22,359 nt of DNA, from positions 1 through 22,359 of the IMG/VR virus record IMGVR_UViG_3300020159_001925. One strand, written 5' to 3'. The notes beneath the pieces were generated by a model, which worked only from the letters and a program-made list of their open reading frames with translations, did no database searches and was not told where the DNA came from. Positions 1-9,362 of the stretch are shown here, piece by piece (positions within the stretch are counted from its first letter, which is position 1; every line of letters starts with the position of its first letter). Both the position numbers and the translations under genes were made by a program. This stretch comes from a virus.

Positions 1-3000
1 GGAGTAGCGAGACTATGGTTTCGCCTCTTCGTGAAGGGCGGCTCTCAAGATTCCTATTCCAGTTCTGGCCAAACGAAACTTCTTCCGTTGGTGCTGCAAG
101 TGTTTGAGCTGCAGACTCCGGCAACGATATCGGTGCCTGCGGCATGCCTTCGCTGAACCCATCTATCAGGGCTTTTTCTGCATCTGTAGCAATTGTCCAG
201 GCCATGTCTATCTCTTGCTGTGCGCCCTTCTTCTTTGCGCCAGGGTACTGAAGTATGGCAGGATTTGTGTTTCTATCAAACACAGAGTTGGTTTCCTTTG
301 AGACAGGGTACTCCGACTTCATTAGCCTTCTCTTTGTCGGGTCCATTCTGCCTACAAGATAGTCTGCAACCCTATCAATTTCAGACTTGTGCAACGTCCC
401 TCTAACCGTGTCTAGGCCAGATACTGAGTCTATAATATCTCCTACAGCGGCATACGGAAGGTTCATGTTCTGATTGTCCGGTGCCTTTTCAGATTTAACA
501 GTTGAGTAGTGCAGCTTTCTGGCTACAAAGATTTCAAAGTCAACGTAGTCTTGCATCAGTCTTGCCATTATATCCGTAGGTTCCGACTTGCCAATTTCGT
601 CAATGGCGCTATCCGGAACGTTGATGATCTTTTCCCTGACTGCCTTAGTCTCTTCAAGTAGTGGTACCTTTTCATCCGCGCCTGAGAGAATTCTCTTAAC
701 TGCAGTTACTGTGTCCTCCACATTGACGCCATCCATGGCCTGCTGCATCTTCCTGGCCATCTTGAGCGTGTGTCGCTTTACGTCATCATCGCTTATCTCA
801 ATTCCTATCTTGGCGTATCTTTCCTTAATTGAGTCGATAACAACAGCAATATGCCGAGCACTTGACGCAGGCCTTCTCCCTTCCCAAATTAGCTTGGCGT
901 AGTCAGGGGCTGCCTTGCCACTAATTTCCCTTCTCTCAGGAGAATCAGCTTGAAGTATATCGCCAAGCGTGTCCTTTGGCAGACCACCCTCTGTCTCTAG
1001 GTTTTGCTCCATCCTTCTATTCTTGTAGAATTCCGCATCTCCGTCGAACTGCTGCGCAACGCTTTCTCCTACCGCCTGGTCGCCAGAAAGTCCAAGACCC
1101 TCAAGTATTGGGGTGCCTGGCCTCTTTCCGTTTGCAACGACCTGGAACGCCCCGTCTCCGGTTAGTCTAGGCTTTGCCATAACCTGAACTAGCTCAGGAC
1201 GAGGTTTTACTGACAGCGAACTTCCGGATGCTTCTGCTGAGGCAAGGACAAGCTCCCTAAGAGCGCTTAGCCTTGGGTTCCTAAGCAGTGGGCTTTCTGG
1301 ATCAAGTGAAGGGTCAACAAGCACAGCTGGTACTTGCATTTTCTTATATATTGGCTTAGACAAATCGTCTTCTAGCTCGTAGGCAATAACTCCAAGTATT
1401 CTTTCTCCGCCCCTGCTTACTGCCCGTATCTCAGCACCTGGCCTCTGAGCTACTATATCGCCTTCCGGCTGGAACGTGGTTTCTTTCCTCTTCTTCTGAT
1501 ACCCTGTAAATACAGATACAGTTACCATTTGATTTGGCATAGGCTGGCCTGGCTGCAATGCTGCCGGAACGGCGGCGATGGTTGCCTTCGTTGCCTCGTC
1601 TGAGTAGTCGTTTACTTCCCAAATGCTTGTTGCATTTGACAGTCCCTTAACCCCGCCTGGCGATTCTACTCCGTACATAAGGTTGTCTGCAACGGTAAGT
1701 TTTGCAAATCCATTCATCTCGTGTTGGTTTTCAATTGCATCTGAAAGTGGACCAATTCCGCTTGCATTTGCAACTAATGAGTACGTCTCCAGATCTACTC
1801 GCCCAGTCTGCGCGTATACCTGCGAAAGTTCTGAGTTAACAACCGGTCGGTATGCTATCCATTCGGTTGGCATATCGGTAATCTCTATATCAAACTTTGC
1901 CTGGTCCGCAGCTGAGTACCCTGACACTTCGCTAAGGAACGCAACCCCAAACCGTGCTGGCCTTATTACGATCTCTACATCTGTAGGTTTTCCTGTTTCA
2001 GTATCAAACAGTGCTACGCTAATTGGTTCTGATAGAGACTTGTTCTCTATCAGTACAAGCTTTGTACCTTCCGGAAGATTCCGCATGTTGTGCGTCGTAA
2101 GCTGTGATGACAGCTTGGATACCCTGTCAAGGCCGTATGCGCCTACGGATCCGTAGTCACCTATATATGTCTTGTCGCCAGTTGCTTCGCGCATTACACC
2201 GCTAGCTTCCTCTCCCTTGTGCACAGGGAATAGCCACGGGTGTCGGTTCATAAACTGATTGAATCCGTCTCGCAGTTTAGGCTCTATGTCTGCTGGCGCA
2301 AAGTCAAGTCCTGGCCTGTAGTCTATTCTAGCAGACTTGTCCATCTGGTAATCCCCGCCAAGACCGTACGCATCAAGCCATTTCTGGGCTTCAGTAATAA
2401 ATCCGTTTTCGTCAAGCCATAGATCACGTATACCAGAACGTCTTCCGTTCTTGTCTACGTCTTCGTATGCAATGATTGCCCTGTAAATTCTGCTTATAGC
2501 TTTCTTAATCTCAGCATCTACTTCTCCAGACTCTGGGTTTAGCATTGCTGCGTCTGCTATATATTGCGCCCATGGAGTGCCCATGTTGCTGGCAAGCTCT
2601 GGTCCTGTCCTAAACTTTGGTATCAATTCTCCATCTTGAGTTTTAATATACTCAATTTCAATTGACCCGGTAAATGCTCTAAGGGCATCATTGTCTATCC
2701 CCTGCCAATAAGCCGACCCTTTTCTAATCGCATAGAACCTCTCGACGTGATCAACCGGCTTAATGTTGTCGTCCTCAAAGTAAGGGTTAAATCCTTCCCA
2801 CTTACCTTCCTCAAACACGTCAAGACTTTGTCGCATCGATGAGATCATGTAGTCAATCATGCCTGCGTATTGAGGGTTAGACTCAACAACTGAAGGGTTC
2901 CTGTTTAGGTACTCGTGCGTCGCCATTATTCTATCAAGCGCCCGCTGCCCTGCTGGTCCATACTCCTTCTGTCCCCTCGGCTCTCGAATCCCAAGACCAC

Positions 3001-5080
3001 CGCTTTGAATGATTGAACGCTGCATTGCGCCAACCATATCAGGATCAACTCCTGCCTTAATCAAGTTAGACTTAAGCTCTTTCCCTATCTTGGTGAATAG
3101 GCTCACAACAGCCGGAGGTGCGTTTCTTGGTGCCTGCCCCGCAAGCGCAAGGTATACAAGATACTTACCGCGAATTCTGTAGGCAAGCGTAAGGCGCTTT
3201 ACTGCCTGGTCGCGCTTTCCGATAGGGGCCCTCTTGTCCATGATATGCTTAAGGTTTGCCACAGTTCCGTCGTCAACCACACCTTTGACTGGGTCCTTAA
3301 TCTTAGACGCTTCTTTTATCAAGTTAAAGTACGCATTGATGAAGTGTGCGTCTATCCTGCTTCCTGAGTCTTCAATACCTGGGACCCGCACCCGTGCAGG
3401 CATCGCGGCAGATTCTATAGCCTCTGAGATAGGAGGGAGCTTCTCACCTTCGGGGGTCGCCGCCGTTGCTATTTTTTGAGTGGGTGCCGGGAGTGGTTCT
3501 GCAGTTTCCCCGGAAATGGCTGTAGGAGCCACGGAGACGGGCGTTTCCCCCTGGGGTGGTACCGGAAGGCCCCCCTGCTTTAAAGCGGGGCTCTTTGCTT
3601 GCTTAGCAGCAACCCTGGCCTTGGCGTCACTGATCATCTTCAGGTGCTTTTGTCGACCAGCTTCGTCCTCGTATCCTAGCGACTCTGGCGTCTCTCGAGA
3701 CATCAAGAGATCACGATCCTCGTATAGTCCTAGTTCAGGCGACTCTACTGAAACTGGACTTGTTGCGCTCTCCAGGGCAGAAAGCTCCTTGGTTAGGTCA
3801 AGCATGATCTTCTGGCGCTCTGGACCGGCTGGAAGCTTGAACGCGAACATCATGTCCTGCTGGATGTCTGCCGGCGTCCTAGATGGTACCTGGGCTGGAG
3901 CAGTCTTCGGGGCTGGCTTGGCGACGGCCTGTCCCGCAGGCTCTGCCGGAGGCTCTGTACCCGGGACAATAGTTGGGCCAGCAGGAGCTACATCTTTTGT
4001 TTGCCGCGTTTTGTACAGGCGCTCAATTGGTTGTGGGATGTTTACGTTTGGCACCGGACGGTCTGGGTGCATAAACGTGCGAGTGCTGCGCGCAAACGAC
4101 CTAGCGTTGTATCCCTCTGCCTTGGCTATATCCCTGATGTCTCGCGTGAAGACCTTGTTGTTGGCCATATCCCGCATTGCGACAAGCCCGTTGTCGCGGT
4201 CGAATGCAAGGATCTGGAATACTCCAGTTAGCCGTGCGTAGTGCGGGCTCTTTTCGCTACCAACGTTGATGATATCTCCAACCTTGGCGGATGGCATAGC
4301 GTTATACGCCCTGGTGGATTCAGTCCTTGTTCCTTTACGGATCTTCTGAAGGTTGCTGTCCTTGTCTCCAGGGATAATTGGATCTGGGTATCCGTTCTTT
4401 CCTGGGATACCGGTGTGCAGAAGGAGACCCCTGGACTCGTTCGGGTCAAAGGTACCACGCTCTACAGGCTCAAACTCGTAGTGCCAGATTGATCCAAGTG
4501 CAGGTATCTTGTCAAGCTTCTTTTGGGCAGGCTGTGCCTCGGGCGCCGCTGTTGCTGGTTTTTCTATGGCTGCAGGCTTTGGTGCCCCAGCTGCCGGAGC
4601 GGAGGGGGCGACAGCAGCTGGGGTCTTCTCTGGTAGCGGCGGTACGTCTTCTGGGATATCTGTTTCAAACGGCTGCATGTCCTCCGGAACAGGCGGAAGG
4701 TCTTCTGGCATACCGGCTGGGGCTGCTTCTGCTGGAGCCGCTGGCTTGGCCGCTGCTGGCTTGCCAGATTGAAGTTCCTTGACGTAGGCGTTGAGCGCCT
4801 TCTTGACCACGTCCTCTGGGAGCTTGGTCTCGAACATGATGGACTTGACAAGGTTGTCCTTCAAGCCTTCGTTCTTGGCTGCCACAGCGGTCATAATGTT
4901 GTTCTTCAGGCGCTCAAGGACGTCCTGGATGCTAGCCTTGCCAGCTATCACGCCCTTCCCTGGGACGAAGCGAGGCTGCTGCCCAATAGGTGCAGGGCCG
5001 GACTCACGCGCAATACCCTGAATGCGCTCGAGCTCAGCCTTCATCTTGTCGTTTAATGGATTTTTTGGATCTTCGGCCAC
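1..5080 (-). CDS. Giant phage protein, 3' end beyond window (at least 1693 aa)
   Basis: One open frame starts at a GTG at 5080, with GAGG six bases upstream, and stays open to the left edge, so the C-terminus is missing. I do not recognise a family. The N-terminal third is modular: a charged helical segment (about residues 1-100), a Pro/Ala/Glu-rich linker (about 105-175), a mixed segment starting near SIWHYEFEPVERGTF (about 195-350), a second Pro/Ala linker (about 373-400), a helical charged segment, and a third Pro-rich linker (about 490-535). After residue about 540 the protein is continuous and linker-poor, with globular-looking sequence rich in Asp, Tyr and Ile. No signal peptide or membrane span is seen. 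Base use changes near 3450: the 5' part is GC-rich, the rest AT-richer with many ATA codons. Possible roles are a virion-injected internal protein or a polyvalent-type effector. The sequence does not decide between them. Confidence 0.9.
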   Translation of the reverse strand, partial: MAEDPKNPLNDKMKAELERIQGIARESGPAPIGQQPRFVPGKGVIAGKASIQDVLERLKNNIMTAVAAKNEGLKDNLVKSIMFETKLPEDVVKKALNAYVKELQSGKPAAAKPAAPAEAAPAGMPEDLPPVPEDMQPFETDIPEDVPPLPEKTPAAVAPSAPAAGAPKPAAIEKPATAAPEAQPAQKKLDKIPALGSIWHYEFEPVERGTFDPNESRGLLLHTGIPGKNGYPDPIIPGDKDSNLQKIRKGTRTESTRAYNAMPSAKVGDIINVGSEKSPHYARLTGVFQILAFDRDNGLVAMRDMANNKVFTRDIRDIAKAEGYNARSFARSTRTFMHPDRPVPNVNIPQPIERLYKTRQTKDVAPAGPTIVPGTEPPAEPAGQAVAKPAPKTAPAQVPSRTPADIQQDMMFAFKLPAGPERQKIMLDLTKELSALESATSPVSVESPELGLYEDRDLLMSRETPESLGYEDEAGRQKHLKMISDAKARVAAKQAKSPALKQGGLPVPPQGETPVSVAPTAISGETAEPLPAPTQKIATAATPEGEKLPPISEAIESAAMPARVRVPGIEDSGSRIDAHFINAYFNLIKEASKIKDPVKGVVDDGTVANLKHIMDKRAPIGKRDQAVKRLTLAYRIRGKYLVYLALAGQAPRNAPPAVVSLFTKIGKELKSNLIKAGVDPDMVGAMQRSIIQSGGLGIREPRGQKEYGPAGQRALDRIMATHEYLNRNPSVVESNPQYAGMIDYMISSMRQSLDVFEEGKWEGFNPYFEDDNIKPVDHVERFYAIRKGSAYWQGIDNDALRAFTGSIEIEYIKTQDGELIPKFRTGPELASNMGTPWAQYIADAAMLNPESGEVDAEIKKAISRIYRAIIAYEDVDKNGRRSGIRDLWLDENGFITEAQKWLDAYGLGGDYQMDKSARIDYRPGLDFAPADIEPKLRDGFNQFMNRHPWLFPVHKGEEASGVMREATGDKTYIGDYGSVGAYGLDRVSKLSSQLTTHNMRNLPEGTKLVLIENKSLSEPISVALFDTETGKPTDVEIVIRPARFGVAFLSEVSGYSAADQAKFDIEITDMPTEWIAYRPVVNSELSQVYAQTGRVDLETYSLVANASGIGPLSDAIENQHEMNGFAKLTVADNLMYGVESPGGVKGLSNATSIWEVNDYSDEATKATIAAVPAALQPGQPMPNQMVTVSVFTGYQKKRKETTFQPEGDIVAQRPGAEIRAVSRGGERILGVIAYELEDDLSKPIYKKMQVPAVLVDPSLDPESPLLRNPRLSALRELVLASAEASGSSLSVKPRPELVQVMAKPRLTGDGAFQVVANGKRPGTPILEGLGLSGDQAVGESVAQQFDGDAEFYKNRRMEQNLETEGGLPKDTLGDILQADSPERREISGKAAPDYAKLIWEGRRPASSARHIAVVIDSIKERYAKIGIEISDDDVKRHTLKMARKMQQAMDGVNVEDTVTAVKRILSGADEKVPLLEETKAVREKIINVPDSAIDEIGKSEPTDIMARLMQDYVDFEIFVARKLHYSTVKSEKAPDNQNMNLPYAAVGDIIDSVSGLDTVRGTLHKSEIDRVADYLVGRMDPTKRRLMKSEYPVSKETNSVFDRNTNPAILQYPGAKKKGAQQEIDMAWTIATDAEKALIDGFSEGMPQAPISLPESAAQTLAAPTEEVSFGQNWNRNLESRPSRRGETIVSLL

Positions 5081-5119
5081 TATTTACCTCGGTATAAAGA
5101 GACTTATGTATATCCTATT

Positions 5120-5139
5120 TACCCTCGTATACGAGGGTA
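5120..5139. promoter_or_regulatory. Perfect 20-bp palindrome, likely operator
   Basis: TACCCTCGTATACGAGGGTA reads the same on both strands without a mismatch. It lies 40 bases upstream of the GTG start of the giant leftward gene, where a repressor dimer could control leftward or divergent transcription. Its right half contains GTATACGAGG, which recurs at two other non-coding sites. The operator role is inferred; no regulator gene is identified in this window. Confidence 0.6.
5127..5136 (+). repeat. GTATACGAGG repeat, copy 1
   Basis: Exact 10-base string that recurs at 5833-5842 and 10963-10972, with a one-base variant at 9282-9291. All four copies are outside protein-coding sequence and near borders of transcription units. 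This copy forms the right part of the 20-bp palindrome. Confidence 0.5.
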
Positions 5140-5310
5140 TAACTAGTCTCTATATATATCCAGTTGTGTCAAGGGCATGCCAACATTAAGATTCCTTATC
5201 AATGGGGTATGTCAGGTGGGGAGGTAGGGTAATCCGTCACGAATGCCACCCGTCTATAACGCTGCCGGGGGACCCCGTCAACCAAAATCGACACCGCAGA
5301 CTGCGTTATC

Positions 5311-5339
5311 TGGGTGGAACCGGCTTCTCGGTTCTCCCA
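5311..5339 (+). promoter_or_regulatory. Structured leader element, copy A
   Basis: TGGG (5311-5314) pairs with CCCA (5336-5339). Inside it, GAACCG (5317-5322) pairs perfectly with CGGTTC (5329-5334) across a six-base loop. The 3' half, CTCGGTTCTCCCAAA, recurs ahead of two more rightward genes (copies at 5944 and 7545), with the paired bases covarying. It stands 44 bases upstream of the ATG at 5383. The conserved CTCC could pair alternatively with the GGAG of the ribosome binding site, which suggests translational control. That role is inferred. Confidence 0.5.
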
Positions 5340-5382
5340 AACGAGCAGGGCAACGGCTCGTCATACAGGAAGGAGCGCACGA

Positions 5383-5763
5383 ATGCGCAAGACTCGCCCC
5401 ACCGTGGGGAAGCCCTCAGTCGAGAGGGGCAAAGTCCTCGACACGCTGACCGTGGCGGACGCGGTCATCCTTGGCTCTTGGAGCCACCCGGACGCGGATC
5501 CGGGCGCATTCTCAGTGGAGCGTGACGACTTCGAGGTAACCTCCTCGAATCTGAAGGGTGACCGTGTCCTCTTCACCATCGTCTCGCACCGCAGCGATGG
5601 GAGCATCGCATCGTTCCGCCGAGCAGCGGCTCGGACGCCAGAAATCGCAGAGGCGGTCAAGGCGCACCAGTGGCAGCGAGTCGCAGCGGTCTTCGAGACC
5701 CGCTTCGACTCAGCAACCGGTCGTGAGTGGAACGACATCGTGGCACTAACCCCAGCCGAGTAG
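5383..5763 (+). CDS. Hypothetical protein, GC-rich cargo-type gene (126 aa)
   Basis: The ATG at 5383 has AGGAAGGAG seven bases upstream; longer in-frame starts from 5314 lack a site and run through the leader hairpin. The product is soluble-looking, with a basic N-terminus (MRKTRPTVGKP) followed by a mixed segment containing FSVERDDFEV, VLFTIVSHRSDGSIASFRRA and WNDIVALTPAE. It has no signal peptide, membrane span or cysteines. I do not recognise the family. The gene and its flanks (about 5200-5820) are visibly GC-richer than the neighbouring plus-strand genes, with almost only C/G at third positions, which suggests recent transfer from a high-GC source, perhaps the host. A GC-rich hairpin closes it at 5780-5803, so it looks like a self-contained insert between the giant gene and the accessory operon. 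Confidence 0.75.
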   Translation: MRKTRPTVGKPSVERGKVLDTLTVADAVILGSWSHPDADPGAFSVERDDFEVTSSNLKGDRVLFTIVSHRSDGSIASFRRAAARTPEIAEAVKAHQWQRVAAVFETRFDSATGREWNDIVALTPAE

Positions 5764-5779
5764 TCGGCTAGCAGCGAGA

Positions 5780-5803
5780 CCCCCGGGAGTGGCACCCCGG
5801 GGG
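5780..5803 (+). terminator. GC-rich hairpin after the cargo-type gene
   Basis: CCCCCGGG (5780-5787) pairs with CCCGGGGG (5796-5803) around an eight-base loop, 17 bases after the stop at 5763. It is strong but lacks a following T run, so it is either a U-poor terminator (tolerated in high-GC bacteria) or a 3'-end stabiliser. Confidence 0.5.
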
Positions 5804-5832
5804 AATCCTGCCGGGTGCCGGTTACATGGGTT

Positions 5833-5842
5833 GTATACGAGG
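5833..5842 (+). repeat. GTATACGAGG repeat, copy 2
   Basis: Same 10 bases as 5127-5136. With that copy it brackets the GC-rich gene at 5383-5763 as a direct repeat about 700 bases apart. Confidence 0.5.
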
Positions 5843-5848
5843 TGAATG

Positions 5849-5925
5849 TTGATACAGTATCTTGATACGAAGGCAAAGGTGATAAGCATAGGGAGAGGGG
5901 TAAGTTGGGGAGGTAATGTATTACC
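5849..5925 (+). promoter_or_regulatory. Control region of the accessory operon with two dyads
   Basis: GATACAGTATC (5851-5861) is an inverted repeat with one central base, followed by another GATAC (5864-5868); TTGATAC occurs twice, 13 bases apart. Further on, GGTAAT and ATTACC (5912-5925) form a second tight dyad. Operator sites and a rightward promoter for the genes from 5999 are expected here. No consensus -35/-10 pair with 16-18 spacing stands out. Confidence 0.4.
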
Positions 5926-5943
5926 CCTGCTCATAACTCTCTA

Positions 5944-5969
5944 TTGGGTAGGCCGCTTGGCTCTCCCAA
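5944..5969 (+). promoter_or_regulatory. Structured leader element, copy B
   Basis: TTGGG (5944-5948) pairs with CCCAA (5965-5969); an inner GGCC/GGCT stem (5951-5954 with 5959-5962) closes on a GCTT loop. It is followed by ATGTGTAG, as in the copy at 7545; the two share 16 identical bases (TCTCCCAAATGTGTAG). It lies 29 bases upstream of the ATG at 5999, whose GGAG could pair with the conserved CTCC. The ATG at 5970 opens a four-codon frame (M-C-S-I-stop), a possible leader peptide. Confidence 0.5.
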
Positions 5970-5998
5970 ATGTGTAGCATATAGATAAGGAGTAGATA

Positions 5999-6346
5999 AT
6001 GTCACGCTTTACAGTTACCAAGTGGAACCCTCCAGTTCCTAATGAACCGGAGGAGTATGCTGTATATGACTATGGCTACGATAGCCAGCTCATGTACTAC
6101 TTCCTGGATATGGTAGGAACCAACATCCCAGGGATTGAAGCACCACAAGAACTGGTAGGTCCGCTTAGCAGTAGGTATGGAGATAGGACTAACCTTCATG
6201 AGGTAATGAAAGAGCATAGAATCTGGGAGCTTATCCCTGAGACACACAGGAACGACATCCTATTGGACCTACCTATTGGTACTATACAAGATGATATAGA
6301 TAAAGACTTCTATGTATCGTATAATAGCACAGTAGAGGAGGCATAA
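5999..6346 (+). CDS. Hypothetical phage protein, acidic (115 aa)
   Basis: The ATG at 5999 follows AAGGAG with a suitable gap. The protein is acidic and soluble, rich in Tyr and Asp near the start (EEYAVYDYGYDSQLMYYF) and with a helical middle. It has no cysteines, signal or membrane segment. No family is recognised. It is the first gene of the plus-strand accessory operon, directly behind a structured leader, so it is probably the most strongly controlled of the set. Its stop overlaps the next start by one base (TAATG), which points to translational coupling. Confidence 0.8.
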   Translation: MSRFTVTKWNPPVPNEPEEYAVYDYGYDSQLMYYFLDMVGTNIPGIEAPQELVGPLSSRYGDRTNLHEVMKEHRIWELIPETHRNDILLDLPIGTIQDDIDKDFYVSYNSTVEEA

Positions 6347-6459
6347 TGGTACCAGAGCCATGCACTGACTGGGGCGCAAGCAGCTACTTTATCGGGGCCA
6401 TGACGGGCGCATTAGCTACCATCCTGGTAGCCTGGCTATTTAGTAGAAAGGAGGTGTAA
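6346..6459 (+). CDS. Mini membrane protein (37 aa)
   Basis: A short frame whose ATG shares a base with the stop of the gene before it. After a polar start (MVPEPCTDWG) comes one hydrophobic span, about residues 13-32 (YFIGAMTGALATILVAWLF), and a short basic tail (SRKEV), so it is predicted to sit in the membrane with the C-terminus inside. The last codons contain AAAGGAGGT, which is the ribosome binding site of the next gene; this tight packing supports that the frame is real. Function unknown; too small for a confident family. Confidence 0.65.
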   Translation: MVPEPCTDWGASSYFIGAMTGALATILVAWLFSRKEV

Positions 6460-6461
6460 CA

Positions 6462-6584
6462 ATGGATATCGCAGCGTTTCTATGGACAGTTATCGCAGTA
6501 ATAGTAGGCATGACTATCTGGTATGCTGGATTCTACCTAATAGAAAAGGCATACGATCATCGCAAGTATAAGGAGAACAAGTAA
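6462..6584 (+). CDS. Mini membrane protein (40 aa)
   Basis: The ATG at 6462 follows GGAGG by about seven bases. One hydrophobic span covers about residues 3-28 (AAFLWTVIAVIVGMTIWYAG), followed by a charged basic tail ending YDHRKYKENK. It resembles the gene before it in size and topology but not in sequence, so the two may be partners. Its stop overlaps the ATG of the RadC-domain gene (TAATG). Small membrane pairs in phage accessory operons can act in superinfection exclusion or membrane control; nothing in the sequence proves such a role here. Confidence 0.65.
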   Translation: MDIAAFLWTVIAVIVGMTIWYAGFYLIEKAYDHRKYKENK

Positions 6585-7051
6585 TGAAAGAGGAACTAGT
6601 CACAGGGTGGAAACAGTATGAAGTTCAGGTCATTAGGCATAAGATATCAGAGGCTAACATCCTTAGAGTAGAGAAGCCGGCGGCAGCAATGGAACTATTC
6701 TCAGAGGATGCAGAACGACTAACTCAAGAATCTTTATGGGTAATGACAATGGATGGACGCAATGGAATAATGGGAATTGAGCGCCTATACCAAGGCACAG
6801 CAACTGGCACAAGCGTAAGGATAAGTGAAATATTCAGGTATGCTATCTCAGTAGGAGGTTGCGGCATAGTTCTAGTGCACAACCATCCAAGTGGAGACCC
6901 ATCGGCAAGCGATGAGGATATTAGGCTAACAGAGGAGGTGCTAAAGGCAGCAAGACTATTAGATGTTGAGTTCCTTGACCATCTCATCGTAGCAGGCAAG
7001 AACTATACTAGCATTAGGTCAATCAAGCCAGCAATATGGGAGGTAATGTAA
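6584..7051 (+). CDS. RadC-like JAB/MPN-domain protein (155 aa)
   Basis: The C-terminal two-thirds matches the RadC-type JAB (JAMM) metalloprotease-fold domain. It carries VLVHNHPSGDPSASDEDIRL, giving the metal-ligand pattern H99-x-H101 with Ser103 and Asp110, and an upstream acidic residue in the IERLYQGT strand (Glu66). The end (FLDHLIVAGKNYTSIRS) is also typical of RadC. The helix-hairpin-helix region of full-length RadC is missing; the protein is about 155 residues against roughly 220 for bacterial RadC. RadC-domain proteins accompany mobile elements and phages, but their biochemical role is unsettled despite the old 'DNA repair' label. A complete zinc site suggests an active hydrolase or a retained metal-binding function. 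It overlaps the upstream gene by one base and sits one base before the next start. Confidence 0.88.
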   Translation: MKEELVTGWKQYEVQVIRHKISEANILRVEKPAAAMELFSEDAERLTQESLWVMTMDGRNGIMGIERLYQGTATGTSVRISEIFRYAISVGGCGIVLVHNHPSGDPSASDEDIRLTEEVLKAARLLDVEFLDHLIVAGKNYTSIRSIKPAIWEVM

Positions 7052-7052
7052 T

Positions 7053-7544
7053 ATGGGATATGACATCTTTACCAGCCAGCCAGACCCAGTACTAGCGGAG
7101 AAGTTTGCTCGCAAGTATGGATATGCGTATCTATTCAAGCCATTAGATGGCACAAATGTATCAACAGTACAAACATTAGAAGGTGAAATCCCAATCGACC
7201 AGCTGCTTCATAGGGTAGGTATCCCAGTTGGTAGCAAGTTTGATGGAGACCCAAAAGTATACTTCAGAGCTAACATCTGGGGTATGCAGGAGGTACGCAA
7301 GTACTTCGTAGAGCTATTCAATACCATACCAGAAGACGAGCGCAAAATAGTAGGTGAGAAGTACATATCATTTATTGACGCCATCAGTTATAATGATGGC
7401 AAGCATGTCAAAACTCAGGACATCTTGACTATACTGCAGTTGATTCAGTACTATGGTCAAGACATAGGGCAGACACCATTAGTAGATGAGTTCATTGAAT
7501 ATATGGAGATAGCATCTACATTAGATGGCTTTCATGTATGGTAG
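7053..7544 (+). CDS. Hypothetical phage protein (163 aa)
   Basis: The ATG at 7053 is preceded by GGGAGG nine bases upstream, inside the end of the RadC-like gene. The product is soluble and acidic, with an N-terminal part containing KPLDGTNVSTVQTLEGEIP and a C-terminal helical part (ISFIDAISYNDGKHVKTQD, then LQLIQYYGQD). It has no cysteines, membrane span or catalytic motif. I do not recognise the family. The stop at 7542-7544 directly abuts the third copy of the leader element, so the following gene may be uncoupled from this one. Confidence 0.78.
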   Translation: MGYDIFTSQPDPVLAEKFARKYGYAYLFKPLDGTNVSTVQTLEGEIPIDQLLHRVGIPVGSKFDGDPKVYFRANIWGMQEVRKYFVELFNTIPEDERKIVGEKYISFIDAISYNDGKHVKTQDILTILQLIQYYGQDIGQTPLVDEFIEYMEIASTLDGFHVW

Positions 7545-7571
7545 TTGGAGGGGGCCACTCGGTTCTCCCAA
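7545..7571 (+). promoter_or_regulatory. Structured leader element, copy C
   Basis: TTGG (7545-7548) pairs with CCAA (7568-7571); inside, GGGGGCC (7550-7556) pairs with GGTTCTC (7561-7567) using several G-U pairs, with loop ACTC. The 3' strand keeps the conserved CTCGGTTCTCCCAAA seen in copy A and the ATGTGTAG tail seen in copy B, while the 5' strand differs yet still pairs. It precedes the GTG at 7590. The ATG at 7572 in its tail is in frame with that gene, so it could serve as an alternative start. Confidence 0.55.
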
Positions 7572-7589
7572 ATGTGTAGAGGAGGCAAT

Positions 7590-8024
7590 GTGAGCGAAGT
7601 AAATGTAACGATCCAGGCTGGGTTCAGCCAAGAGTCAGCAGAGCGGCATCTCTCTGCATTCAAGACAATCATCGAGGCTTGTGCCCAGGTGATTGCAGAA
7701 CCAGAGCGCATGCTAACTGCATATGGAGATTACTTTATGCCTATCATCGACGACATAGTAGATCGTGGTGAGATGGAGCGCAGCGAAGCAATCCAGATTG
7801 CTAAGGATGCATTGTCTGAGTTGTTCGTTATCAACCAGCGCTTGGCATTCATGGTAGGAACCGAAGTAGCAGAAGAGATTGGCGCAGACCCAATAAACCC
7901 AAAGTGTATGGCAGTGCCTATCTATCGTGGCAATGACGGCAGTGGATCAGAATCGCTTAGCAAAGAGGAGGTGATGGAAGAGCTAAGTAGAATCATGCGA
8001 CAGCCAGGAAAGGAAACAAATTAA
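7590..8024 (+). CDS. Hypothetical phage protein, helical (144 aa)
   Basis: The chosen start is the GTG at 7590 (VSEVNVTIQAGF), which has AGAGGAGG four bases upstream; an ATG at 7588 is out of frame and stops at once. An in-frame ATG at 7572 has no free ribosome binding site. The product is acidic and mostly helical (ERHLSAFKTIIEACAQVIAE; SEAIQIAKDALSELFVINQR), ending with a short charged tail. No membrane span or catalytic motif is seen and no family is recognised. It is probably controlled by the leader element immediately upstream, and is coupled to the next gene by a TAATG overlap. Confidence 0.75.
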   Translation: MSEVNVTIQAGFSQESAERHLSAFKTIIEACAQVIAEPERMLTAYGDYFMPIIDDIVDRGEMERSEAIQIAKDALSELFVINQRLAFMVGTEVAEEIGADPINPKCMAVPIYRGNDGSGSESLSKEEVMEELSRIMRQPGKETN

Positions 8025-9281: not shown

Positions 9282-9291
9282 GTATACGGGG
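9282..9291 (+). repeat. GTATACGGGG, variant of the GTATACGAGG repeat
   Basis: Nine of ten bases match the repeat at 5127, 5833 and 10963. Its last five bases are the start of the tRNA acceptor stem, so the match to the tRNA part may be chance. Confidence 0.35.
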
Positions 9292-9362
9292 CGTAGCTCA
9301 ACGGTTAGAGCACCGAGCTTATATCTCGGCGGTTCCTGGTTCGAATCCAGGCGCCCCGACCA
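9287..9362 (+). tRNA. tRNA-Ile (anticodon UAU), CCA encoded
   Basis: The full cloverleaf folds by eye: acceptor CGGGGCG/CGCCCCG (7 bp), D stem GCTC/GAGC, anticodon stem CCGAG/CTCGG with loop CTTATAT, a five-base variable loop, and T stem CCTGG/CCAGG with loop TTCGAAT. The discriminator is A and the gene encodes its own CCA. Loop position 34-36 reads TAT, which decodes AUA. Most bacteria read AUA with a CAU tRNA modified to lysidine, so a UAU tRNA is uncommon and needs no such modification. Phage genes here use ATA often, so it probably supplements a host poor in AUA decoding. Confidence 0.93.

Follow-up and report, generated by a model that had tools for sequence, protein, structure and literature searches.

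Three Hairpins in the Leaders of Rightward Genes

The window analyzed here is the whole 22,359-nucleotide stretch of IMG/VR virus record IMGVR_UViG_3300020159_001925 (positions 1 to 22,359), and its top direct-repeat family consists of three hairpins, A, B and C (Table 1). All three occur on the + strand only, and each forms part of the leader preceding a gene or operon that reads rightward (starts at 5383, 5999 and 7590); hairpin C abuts the stop codon of the gene before it. A first-pass annotation, made by a model from the sequence alone, had placed hairpins at 5311, 5944 and 7545 and reported 16 exact bases common to copies B and C. Coordinates and sequences check out, the shared 16-mer being TCTCCCAAATGTGTAG; copies A and C have an exact 15-mer, CTCGGTTCTCCCAAA, in common. 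The 3′ block of the window-type copies is nearly invariant, with a T/C alternation at one site only.

Table 1. Hairpins, ribosome binding sites and genes of the three leaders
Feature	Coordinates	Strand	Remarks
Copy A hairpin	5311-5339	+	TGGG(t)GGAACCG-gcttct-CGGTTCT-CCCA; 5′ strand 5311-5322, loop 5323-5328, conserved 3′ block from 5329
Second hairpin of leader A	5341-5361	+	ACGAGC...GCTCGT, between copy A and Shine-Dalgarno; similar small hairpin in relatives' leader A
Shine-Dalgarno of gene A	5367-5375	+	AGGAAGGAG
Gene A	5383-5763	+	126 aa
Upstream hairpin of leader B	5897-5927	+	GGGGTAA...TTACCCC, loop with GGGGAGG; similar segment in relatives
Copy B	hairpin 5944-5969; with tail reaching GTGTAG, 5944-5977	+	TTGGG(ta)GGCC-gctt-GGCT(ct)CCCAA
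Shine-Dalgarno of gene B	5987-5992	+	AAGGAG
Gene B	5999-6346	+	115 aa; heads a block containing a RadC-like gene (6584-7051)
Copy C	hairpin 7545-7571; whole, 7545-7579	+	TTGG(a)GGGGGCC-actc-GGTTCTC-CCAA; tail merges into Shine-Dalgarno
Shine-Dalgarno of gene C	7579-7585	+	GAGGAGG
Gene C	7590-8024	+	144 aa, GTG start

Gene A has a syntenic relative in the phage L009, at the same position, for which structure searches indicated an SSB-like OB fold; the query in these searches was the L009 protein, not the window protein, to which it is 23% identical. A family search with the gene B protein gave no match. No intrinsic terminators were found between 4900 and 8400, and an Rfam search returned only the tRNA and a match on the tRNA's other strand, with no known RNA family for the repeated element.

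On the evidence of the window by itself, such a repeat is no more than moderately surprising: an exact same-strand 16-mer repeat arises in 4 of 60 dinucleotide shuffles. Matches to the 16-mer in contigs L001 and L002 lie in unrelated contexts, and we took them as chance.

Corresponding Elements in Syntenic Relatives

About 12 syntenic IMG/VR phages carry, in the corresponding leaders, an element of 12-23 nt, mostly in 3-6 copies per phage. It is near-identical inside one genome, differs between genomes and has (C)GTA(G) at its end. It is one of the top same-strand repeats at these loci, confined to the + strand and placed in the same leaders. The element is TGACTCCCTCGTA in L009, L028 and L029 (four copies), GTTGCTCTCCCGTATA in L012 (five copies, all exact, the next best site having 6 mismatches), GTYCGCTGGACTNNCCTCCATA in L019 (five copies), CCCTNNCCCGTA in L027 (six copies) and GCTGGTCTGCCCCCCGTAG in L031, L032 and L046 (four copies); L051 and L052 have four copies of theirs. 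Most sites lie some 14-45 bp ahead of start codons and are oriented with transcription. Like window copy C, the L027 copies at 1973 and 2196 follow a stop codon and precede the next Shine-Dalgarno.

The gene C sequences of the window and of L019 are 89% identical, whereas their elements differ, each matching the other copies of its own genome; the element therefore goes with the phage rather than with the gene. In L021, the homologous leader retains GGTTCTCCCAAA...TGTAGAGGAGG, and its 5′ strand is altered yet still pairs. These observations support the view that a structured leader element, with a phage-specific sequence, is a general feature of the relatives. The first-pass annotation had named a chance similarity missing from relatives as something that would refute it; since the relatives bear elements at the same places, we dropped a chance origin. 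We also disfavor a trans-acting antisense RNA, because no antisense copies of the element rose above background in the eight loci tested. Searches of window DNA by megablast/blastn yielded no close relatives among phage isolates or bacterial genomes, and the protein encoded at 7053-7544 found none among genome contigs.

Pairing of the Sense RNA

To assess pairing, the 3′ block was held fixed and the 5′ strand was dinucleotide-shuffled 300 times. For the four window-type copies the pairing energy was -54.1 kcal/mol, as against -29.7 ± 4.3 kcal/mol for the shuffles, none of which (0/300) reached the observed value. Pairing of the 5′ strand likewise went beyond shuffles in the L009-type set (with L005, L014 and L028), in L019 and in L027 (0/300 each), and 8/300 shuffles matched it in L012. 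When pairing on either side of the block was permitted, both L012 and L031 gave 0/200. Upstream pairing was no better than shuffles in the L031-type (54/300), L051 (244/300) and L052 (251/300) copies, and setting the block 3 nt longer cost L009 (91/200) and L028 (26/200) their significance.

The summed difference between sense and antisense hairpin stability was -51.6 kcal/mol, whereas shuffling of the 5′ strands gave +7.3 ± 9.4 kcal/mol (0/300), although some copies had been picked after their sense pairing was known, which favors the sense strand. Together, sense pairing beyond shuffles and a sense fold more stable than the antisense one support an RNA hairpin in the window type and in several relatives. 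The earlier suggestion that the 5′ strands differ and still pair thus holds up, and that of a leader structure under selection is supported, except that some distant relatives fail the pairing test.

Covariation between the two halves, also claimed, turned out to be minimal in the strict sense. RNAalifold on the window-type alignment counted 0 double-sided changes, as can be expected because the 3′ block is nearly invariant, and comparison of copies A and B by eye showed one compensatory pair (A-T to G-C). In L027, RNAalifold gave 1 compensatory pair, while a hand alignment leaning to structure gave two variable pairs. The cross-phage RNAalifold alignment contained 0 consensus pairs, probably due to stems differing in register; the covariance model derived from it held sequence only and was left unused.

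Most copies have their partner strand upstream, but in L012, L031, L032 and L051 some leader-A copies have it downstream, meaning that the topology is not fixed. A swap test supported cognate pairing in L027 alone (0.046).

Sequestration of the Shine-Dalgarno

A further proposal was a translation switch, in which the 3′-strand CUCC would pair either within the hairpin or with the GGAG of the Shine-Dalgarno. In the window this is thermodynamically possible: with the 5′ strand blocked, the unpaired fraction of Shine-Dalgarno bases in A, B and C is 0.26-0.37, down from 0.75-0.84, and additional blocking of the 3′ block restores it in A and B and partly in C. However, shuffled C-rich 3′ blocks sequester the site nearly equally (fraction at or below the observed value, 0.18-0.23 in A, B and C), and the effect is missing in L009C, L012, L027C and L031C. 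Nor is the anti-Shine-Dalgarno kept in distant relatives, the L051 and L052 blocks being devoid of CTCC. For all three copies of the window, the native fold exceeds the alternative in stability by 7-14 kcal/mol, so that the default state would be on and a trigger would be needed. A switch is feasible in the window and is not retained in the relatives, and we consider it quite improbable as the function of the element.

DNA Site, Processing Site or Cassette Boundary

The conserved asymmetric block could instead be a DNA site, or part of a promoter, for a phage-specific transcription regulator or polymerase, as in stoperators, ESAS or T7/N4-like promoters. The orientation and spacing of the sites would suit such a role, the block is kept as sequence along with loop and tail, and the shared (C)GTA(G) beside a block that differs by phage is reminiscent of phage RNA polymerase promoters, with their specificity and initiation parts. 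Putative SigA promoters are present in the ESAS of phage Adephagia (PMC11373665), and the failure of the L031-type, L051 and L052 copies to pair upstream beyond shuffles also fits a DNA site. The sense-strand pairing of near relatives, which exceeds shuffles, speaks against a DNA site. By eye, no recognizable -35/-10 stands immediately upstream of those copies that follow stop codons (window C and the L027 copies at 1973 and 2196), and the variability of the 5′ flank means that there is no fixed -35 at promoter distance. All in all, we regard this explanation as rather unlikely.

N4 early promoters are hairpin promoters of the virion RNA polymerase. Like them, the elements described here are a few same-direction, hairpin-forming repeats in an early region, with a giant protein gene adjoining; unlike them, they have stem sequences that differ between copies, and no RNA polymerase match was found in the records. 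A search for single-subunit RNA polymerase (PF00940) covered the records of L009, L016, L032 and L046, possibly fragments, and gave no match; the control was also without a match. The giant proteins scanned gave no polymerase match, and the giant leftward ORFs of the window and L009 contain no conserved polymerase motif. On these records, we provisionally disfavor an N4- or T7-type promoter. A phage sigma factor was set aside, nothing in G000-G004 matching sigma region 4 above the cut-off. One weak, sub-threshold sigma match falls in a DnaQ-like exonuclease.

The hairpin might also stabilize or process mRNA, marking an intercistronic cleavage or shielding the downstream message, in which case the fixed 3′ half would be a nuclease recognition site. 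The intercistronic copies, right after stop codons and ahead of a Shine-Dalgarno, are well placed for this, and the hairpin carries a free GTA(G) tail; but a generic stabilizer should require no phage-specific sequence, and one would expect the site of a host nuclease to stay the same between syntenic phages. This makes such a function improbable.

A boundary for recombination of gene cassettes, with phage-specific repeats permitting cassette gain and loss like species-specific integron attC families, seems to us very improbable. It would fit the presence in L027 of a pair of gene A paralogues and of two additional small genes, with a copy before each, and that of an extra small ORF between copies in L012. 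However, the sites are bound to gene starts and their places are kept between phages, the pairing strands and flanks are not conserved, and there was no recombinase among the scanned proteins.

A Possible Phage-Specific RNA Control Element

Our preferred reading, to which we would give somewhat less than an even chance, is that the three copies are a cis-acting mRNA-leader element of the rightward (early-type) genes, serving post-transcriptional control through a phage-specific trans-acting factor. The recognized part would be the 3′ strand of the stem-loop with the adjoining (C)GTA(G)-type tail, the role of the 5′ strand being limited to pairing with it. A single factor, specific to each phage, may read the element and so jointly control the translation or stability of several early messages. 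Action as RNA is our inference. One phage-specific factor is the most likely reader, because the copies share the recognized part, which turns over between close phages at kept positions. It is conceivable, though on the whole unlikely, that this family of uncultured phages uses a private RNA "address", that is, a hairpin before several early genes, renewed between lineages with places and anatomy kept, and read by a co-evolving factor acting on its own messages only.

Repeats of the start-associated kind have been on record since 2011 for several clusters of actinophages, with a function still termed ill-defined. In the present syntenic set, genes and positions were retained through repeated replacement of the element, and the partner strand gives a hint as to which part has to pair and which has to be read, which makes the question testable by element swaps between relatives. 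If the element does work through a phage-specific factor, it would amount to a compact orthogonal RNA control module.

The autogenous Ssb mRNA targets of T4 and RB69 have diverged in sequence and are similar in structure; the gp32 target consists of a pseudoknot plus a long less-structured region and serves a single gene (PMC535899). Similarly, here a structured leader precedes an SSB-like gene and its sequence has diverged between related phages. By analogy with gp32, the trans-acting factor might be the SSB-like gene A product, which is a weak candidate. Unlike the gp32 targets, however, our element is a short hairpin found in several leaders, and gene A similarity is independent of element type: L005 and L009 share an element, while their gene A proteins are 33% identical. 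For this reason we dropped gene A as a proven factor.

Relation to Start-Associated Repeats

In cluster K phages, the SAS is a 13-mer (GGGATAGGAGCCC) found in 11-19 copies, 3-7 bp from the start and overlapping the ribosome site, and the ESAS is a 17-bp imperfect inverted repeat upstream of it (PMC3203893, PMC12699233, PMC11373665). Our elements resemble both in being short, transcription-oriented repeats before a subset of non-structural genes, and the ESAS consensus, too, varies by subcluster. They differ in copy number (3-6), in pairing support, the ESAS inverted repeats having been judged not to support RNA pairing, and in a sequence that changes between phages. The window element is not a SAS, since it consists of GGYTCTCCCAAA plus a tail, upstream of a separate Shine-Dalgarno; it is not an ESAS either, as there is no SAS at the starts, the paired arms are shorter and the partner strand is variable. 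A likeness to SAS in concept with a different sequence, as the first-pass annotation put it, is therefore apt, with the addition that the distance to the start differs too and the Shine-Dalgarno is not overlapped.

Intergenic repeats have also been described in Microbacterium phages: 18 bp in cluster EC, SAS-like repeats and an ESAS centered on GTAGAG in EF, and five copies of 30 bp in EI (PMC7302621). Like these, our elements occupy short intergenic gaps; their sequence is unrelated, and turnover among syntenic relatives is not reported for EC, EF or EI in the part of that study drawn on here. We rejected the ESAS of AnnaSerena (EF) as the same thing, its repeats having by eye no comparable hairpin-plus-tail layout. 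The EC copies are asymmetric, share one orientation and precede the ribosome site, at 21-30 bp from the start (PMC7302621). Our element is best read as a new variant among the start-associated repeats already known from phages: taken loosely, as for the EC and EI types, it occurs as multiple same-orientation copies in small gaps just upstream of ribosome sites.

Leader Hairpins and Their Counterparts in Related Contigs

In the window, a 22,359-base virus record of IMG/VR, a giant leftward gene and a block of small rightward genes point away from each other at about 5,100-5,380, and three copies of a leader element, each comprising a hardly varying 3' block and a 5' strand able to pair with it, lie exclusively on the + strand (see the table). 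They constitute the top repeat family of the window, with 16 exact bases in common between B and C and 15 between A and C. Since an exact same-strand 16-mer repeat also arose in 4 of 60 shuffles, the window by itself is only suggestive.

Coordinates of leader elements and neighboring features (L numbers, IMG/VR viral contigs)
Feature	Contig	Position (strand)	Context
Copy A	window	5311-5339 (+)	before gene A, start 5383
Copy B	window	5944-5977 (+)	before gene B, start 5999
Copy C	window	7545-7579 (+)	between stop codon of 7053-7544 gene and gene C, start 7590
Leader-A copies, downstream partner strand	L012	3040, 3313	
	L031	8137	
	L032	8569	
	L051	4258	
Tandem duplicate gene A	L027	2328-2672, 3014-3361	own leader element before each
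Palindrome ACCCTCGTATACGAGGGT	window	5118-5143	divergent region
TACCTGGCGAAYGC / ACGAAYGC	window	5239, 5864	
	L009	7750, 7771, 12173, 12214	
	L012	3795, 3813, 5131, 8160, 8202	
	L019	4280	
	L028	1464, 6300, 6341	
Giant leftward protein	window	2-5083 (-)	beside divergent region
	L009	1480-6975	beside divergent region
	L064	1105-8862	beside divergent region
tRNA-Ile, anticodon TAT	window	9287-9362 (+)	inside rightward block

The searches made found no close relatives among phage isolates or bacterial genome records; syntenic contigs were obtained by searching viral contigs with the window proteins and with alignments of them. L009, for instance, is collinear with the window across most of its length, most shared proteins being 60-97% identical. 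Among these relatives, only L021 carries TCTCCCAAA at the corresponding leaders, and the others have a repeated element of their own there. In a k-mer count run without any leader information, these elements were the first- or second-ranked repeat in L009, L012, L019, L022, L028, L029, L031, L032, L046, L051 and L052. Copies from one genome are almost invariant (L012, five exact 16-mers, next best site at 6 mismatches; L031, four sites with 0-2 mismatches, next at 5), and between genomes the element differs except for a (C)GTA(G)-like end. Distant relatives (L049, L053, L055-L061) contain other repeated words, TGCCCGACGGGG or TGCCCTACGGAG, often preceded by GTACTATCA and arranged in clusters.

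Gene C is 89% identical between the window and L019, yet its leader carries GGTTCTCCCAAATGTGTAG in the former and GTCCGCTGGACTACCCTCCATAG in the latter, each resembling the other copies in its own genome; the element thus goes with the phage rather than with the gene. In L021, gene C is 63% identical to that of the window, and the window's element is present. Such matching would be the expected outcome if all copies in a phage were read by one trans-acting factor. Under gene conversion one would expect the 5' strands and flanks to become alike as well, and both of these vary.

Pairing, Mechanism and Candidate Factor

When only the 5' strand was dinucleotide-shuffled and the 3' block left as it is, native pairing exceeded 300 of 300 shuffles for the window type (window and L021), the L009-type set, L019 and L027, and 292 for L012; L031-type, L051 and L052 were not above chance. 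When the partner could lie on either side of the block (200 shuffles), pairing exceeded all shuffles in L012, L027, L031 and the window type, 199 in L046 and 197 in L051; it was weaker in L019, L032 and L028, and not above chance in L009 and L052. Some leader-A copies have a downstream partner, placing the GTA part in or beside the loop. Sense-RNA hairpins were more stable than antisense ones, by a difference that 0 of 300 shuffles reached, some copies having been picked with the pairing already known. The first-pass annotation had described a covarying 5' half: pairing is indeed retained, mostly via wobble or one-sided changes, but strict covariation is slight (RNAalifold double changes, none in the window type and one pair in L027; swap test marginal in L027 only, 0.046).

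On the best-supported reading, which we favor tentatively, several early genes have in common a cis-acting RNA element in their leaders, which one phage-specific factor would read. Its main rival, a DNA site (regulator site or promoter part), seems less likely to us; it is favored by those distant members that lack pairing support and by the ESAS (Extended Start Associated Sequences) of Adephagia, which contain putative promoters (PMC11373665), but the records searched, possibly fragments, yielded neither a T7-kind polymerase, in a search without positive control, nor a sigma factor above the cut-off.

The proposed switch, in which CUCC of the block alternates between hairpin and Shine-Dalgarno GGAG, proved feasible in that blocking the 5' strand in silico let CUCC capture the Shine-Dalgarno in 3/3 window leaders. 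As a conserved function it is unsupported: shuffled C-rich blocks did nearly as well, and many relatives lack the effect.

As for the putative reader of the leader RNA, gene A, the first gene behind the element, is predicted to encode an SSB-like OB fold (modelled from L009 and relatives, pLDDT 92; Z 10.5, 2.1 Å over 87 residues against Streptomyces SSB 4dam). Because autogenous repression by the SSB proteins of T4 and RB69 works through mRNA targets that have diverged in sequence (PMC535899), its product is a candidate factor, against which counts that gene A does not track element type (L005 vs L009).

Comparison with Known Repeats and Neighboring Features

Broadly similar repeats are known from phages of clusters K (PMC3203893), EC, EF and EI (PMC7302621), EG and O. 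The present element is neither SAS nor ESAS of the cluster K mycobacteriophages, differing from both in sequence, distance and anatomy. Two aspects are new: its setting in a hairpin whose partner strand is free, and its replacement from one syntenic relative to another at unchanged positions.

The divergent region of the window holds an operator-like palindrome, and CCCTCTAAGAGGG or a near-match, often repeated, occurs in those of L005, L009, L012, L019, L027 and L031. A second repeated motif, TACCTGGCGAAYGC / ACGAAYGC, occurs both in leaders and close to where the rightward block ends on the right; unlike the hairpin element, its sequence is common to several phages. The giant leftward proteins (at least 1694 aa in the window, 1831 in L009, 2585 in L064) have almost no family match; the N-terminal part is proline-rich in the window and L009, and those of L009 and L064 show weak tail or tape-measure similarity toward the C-terminal end.
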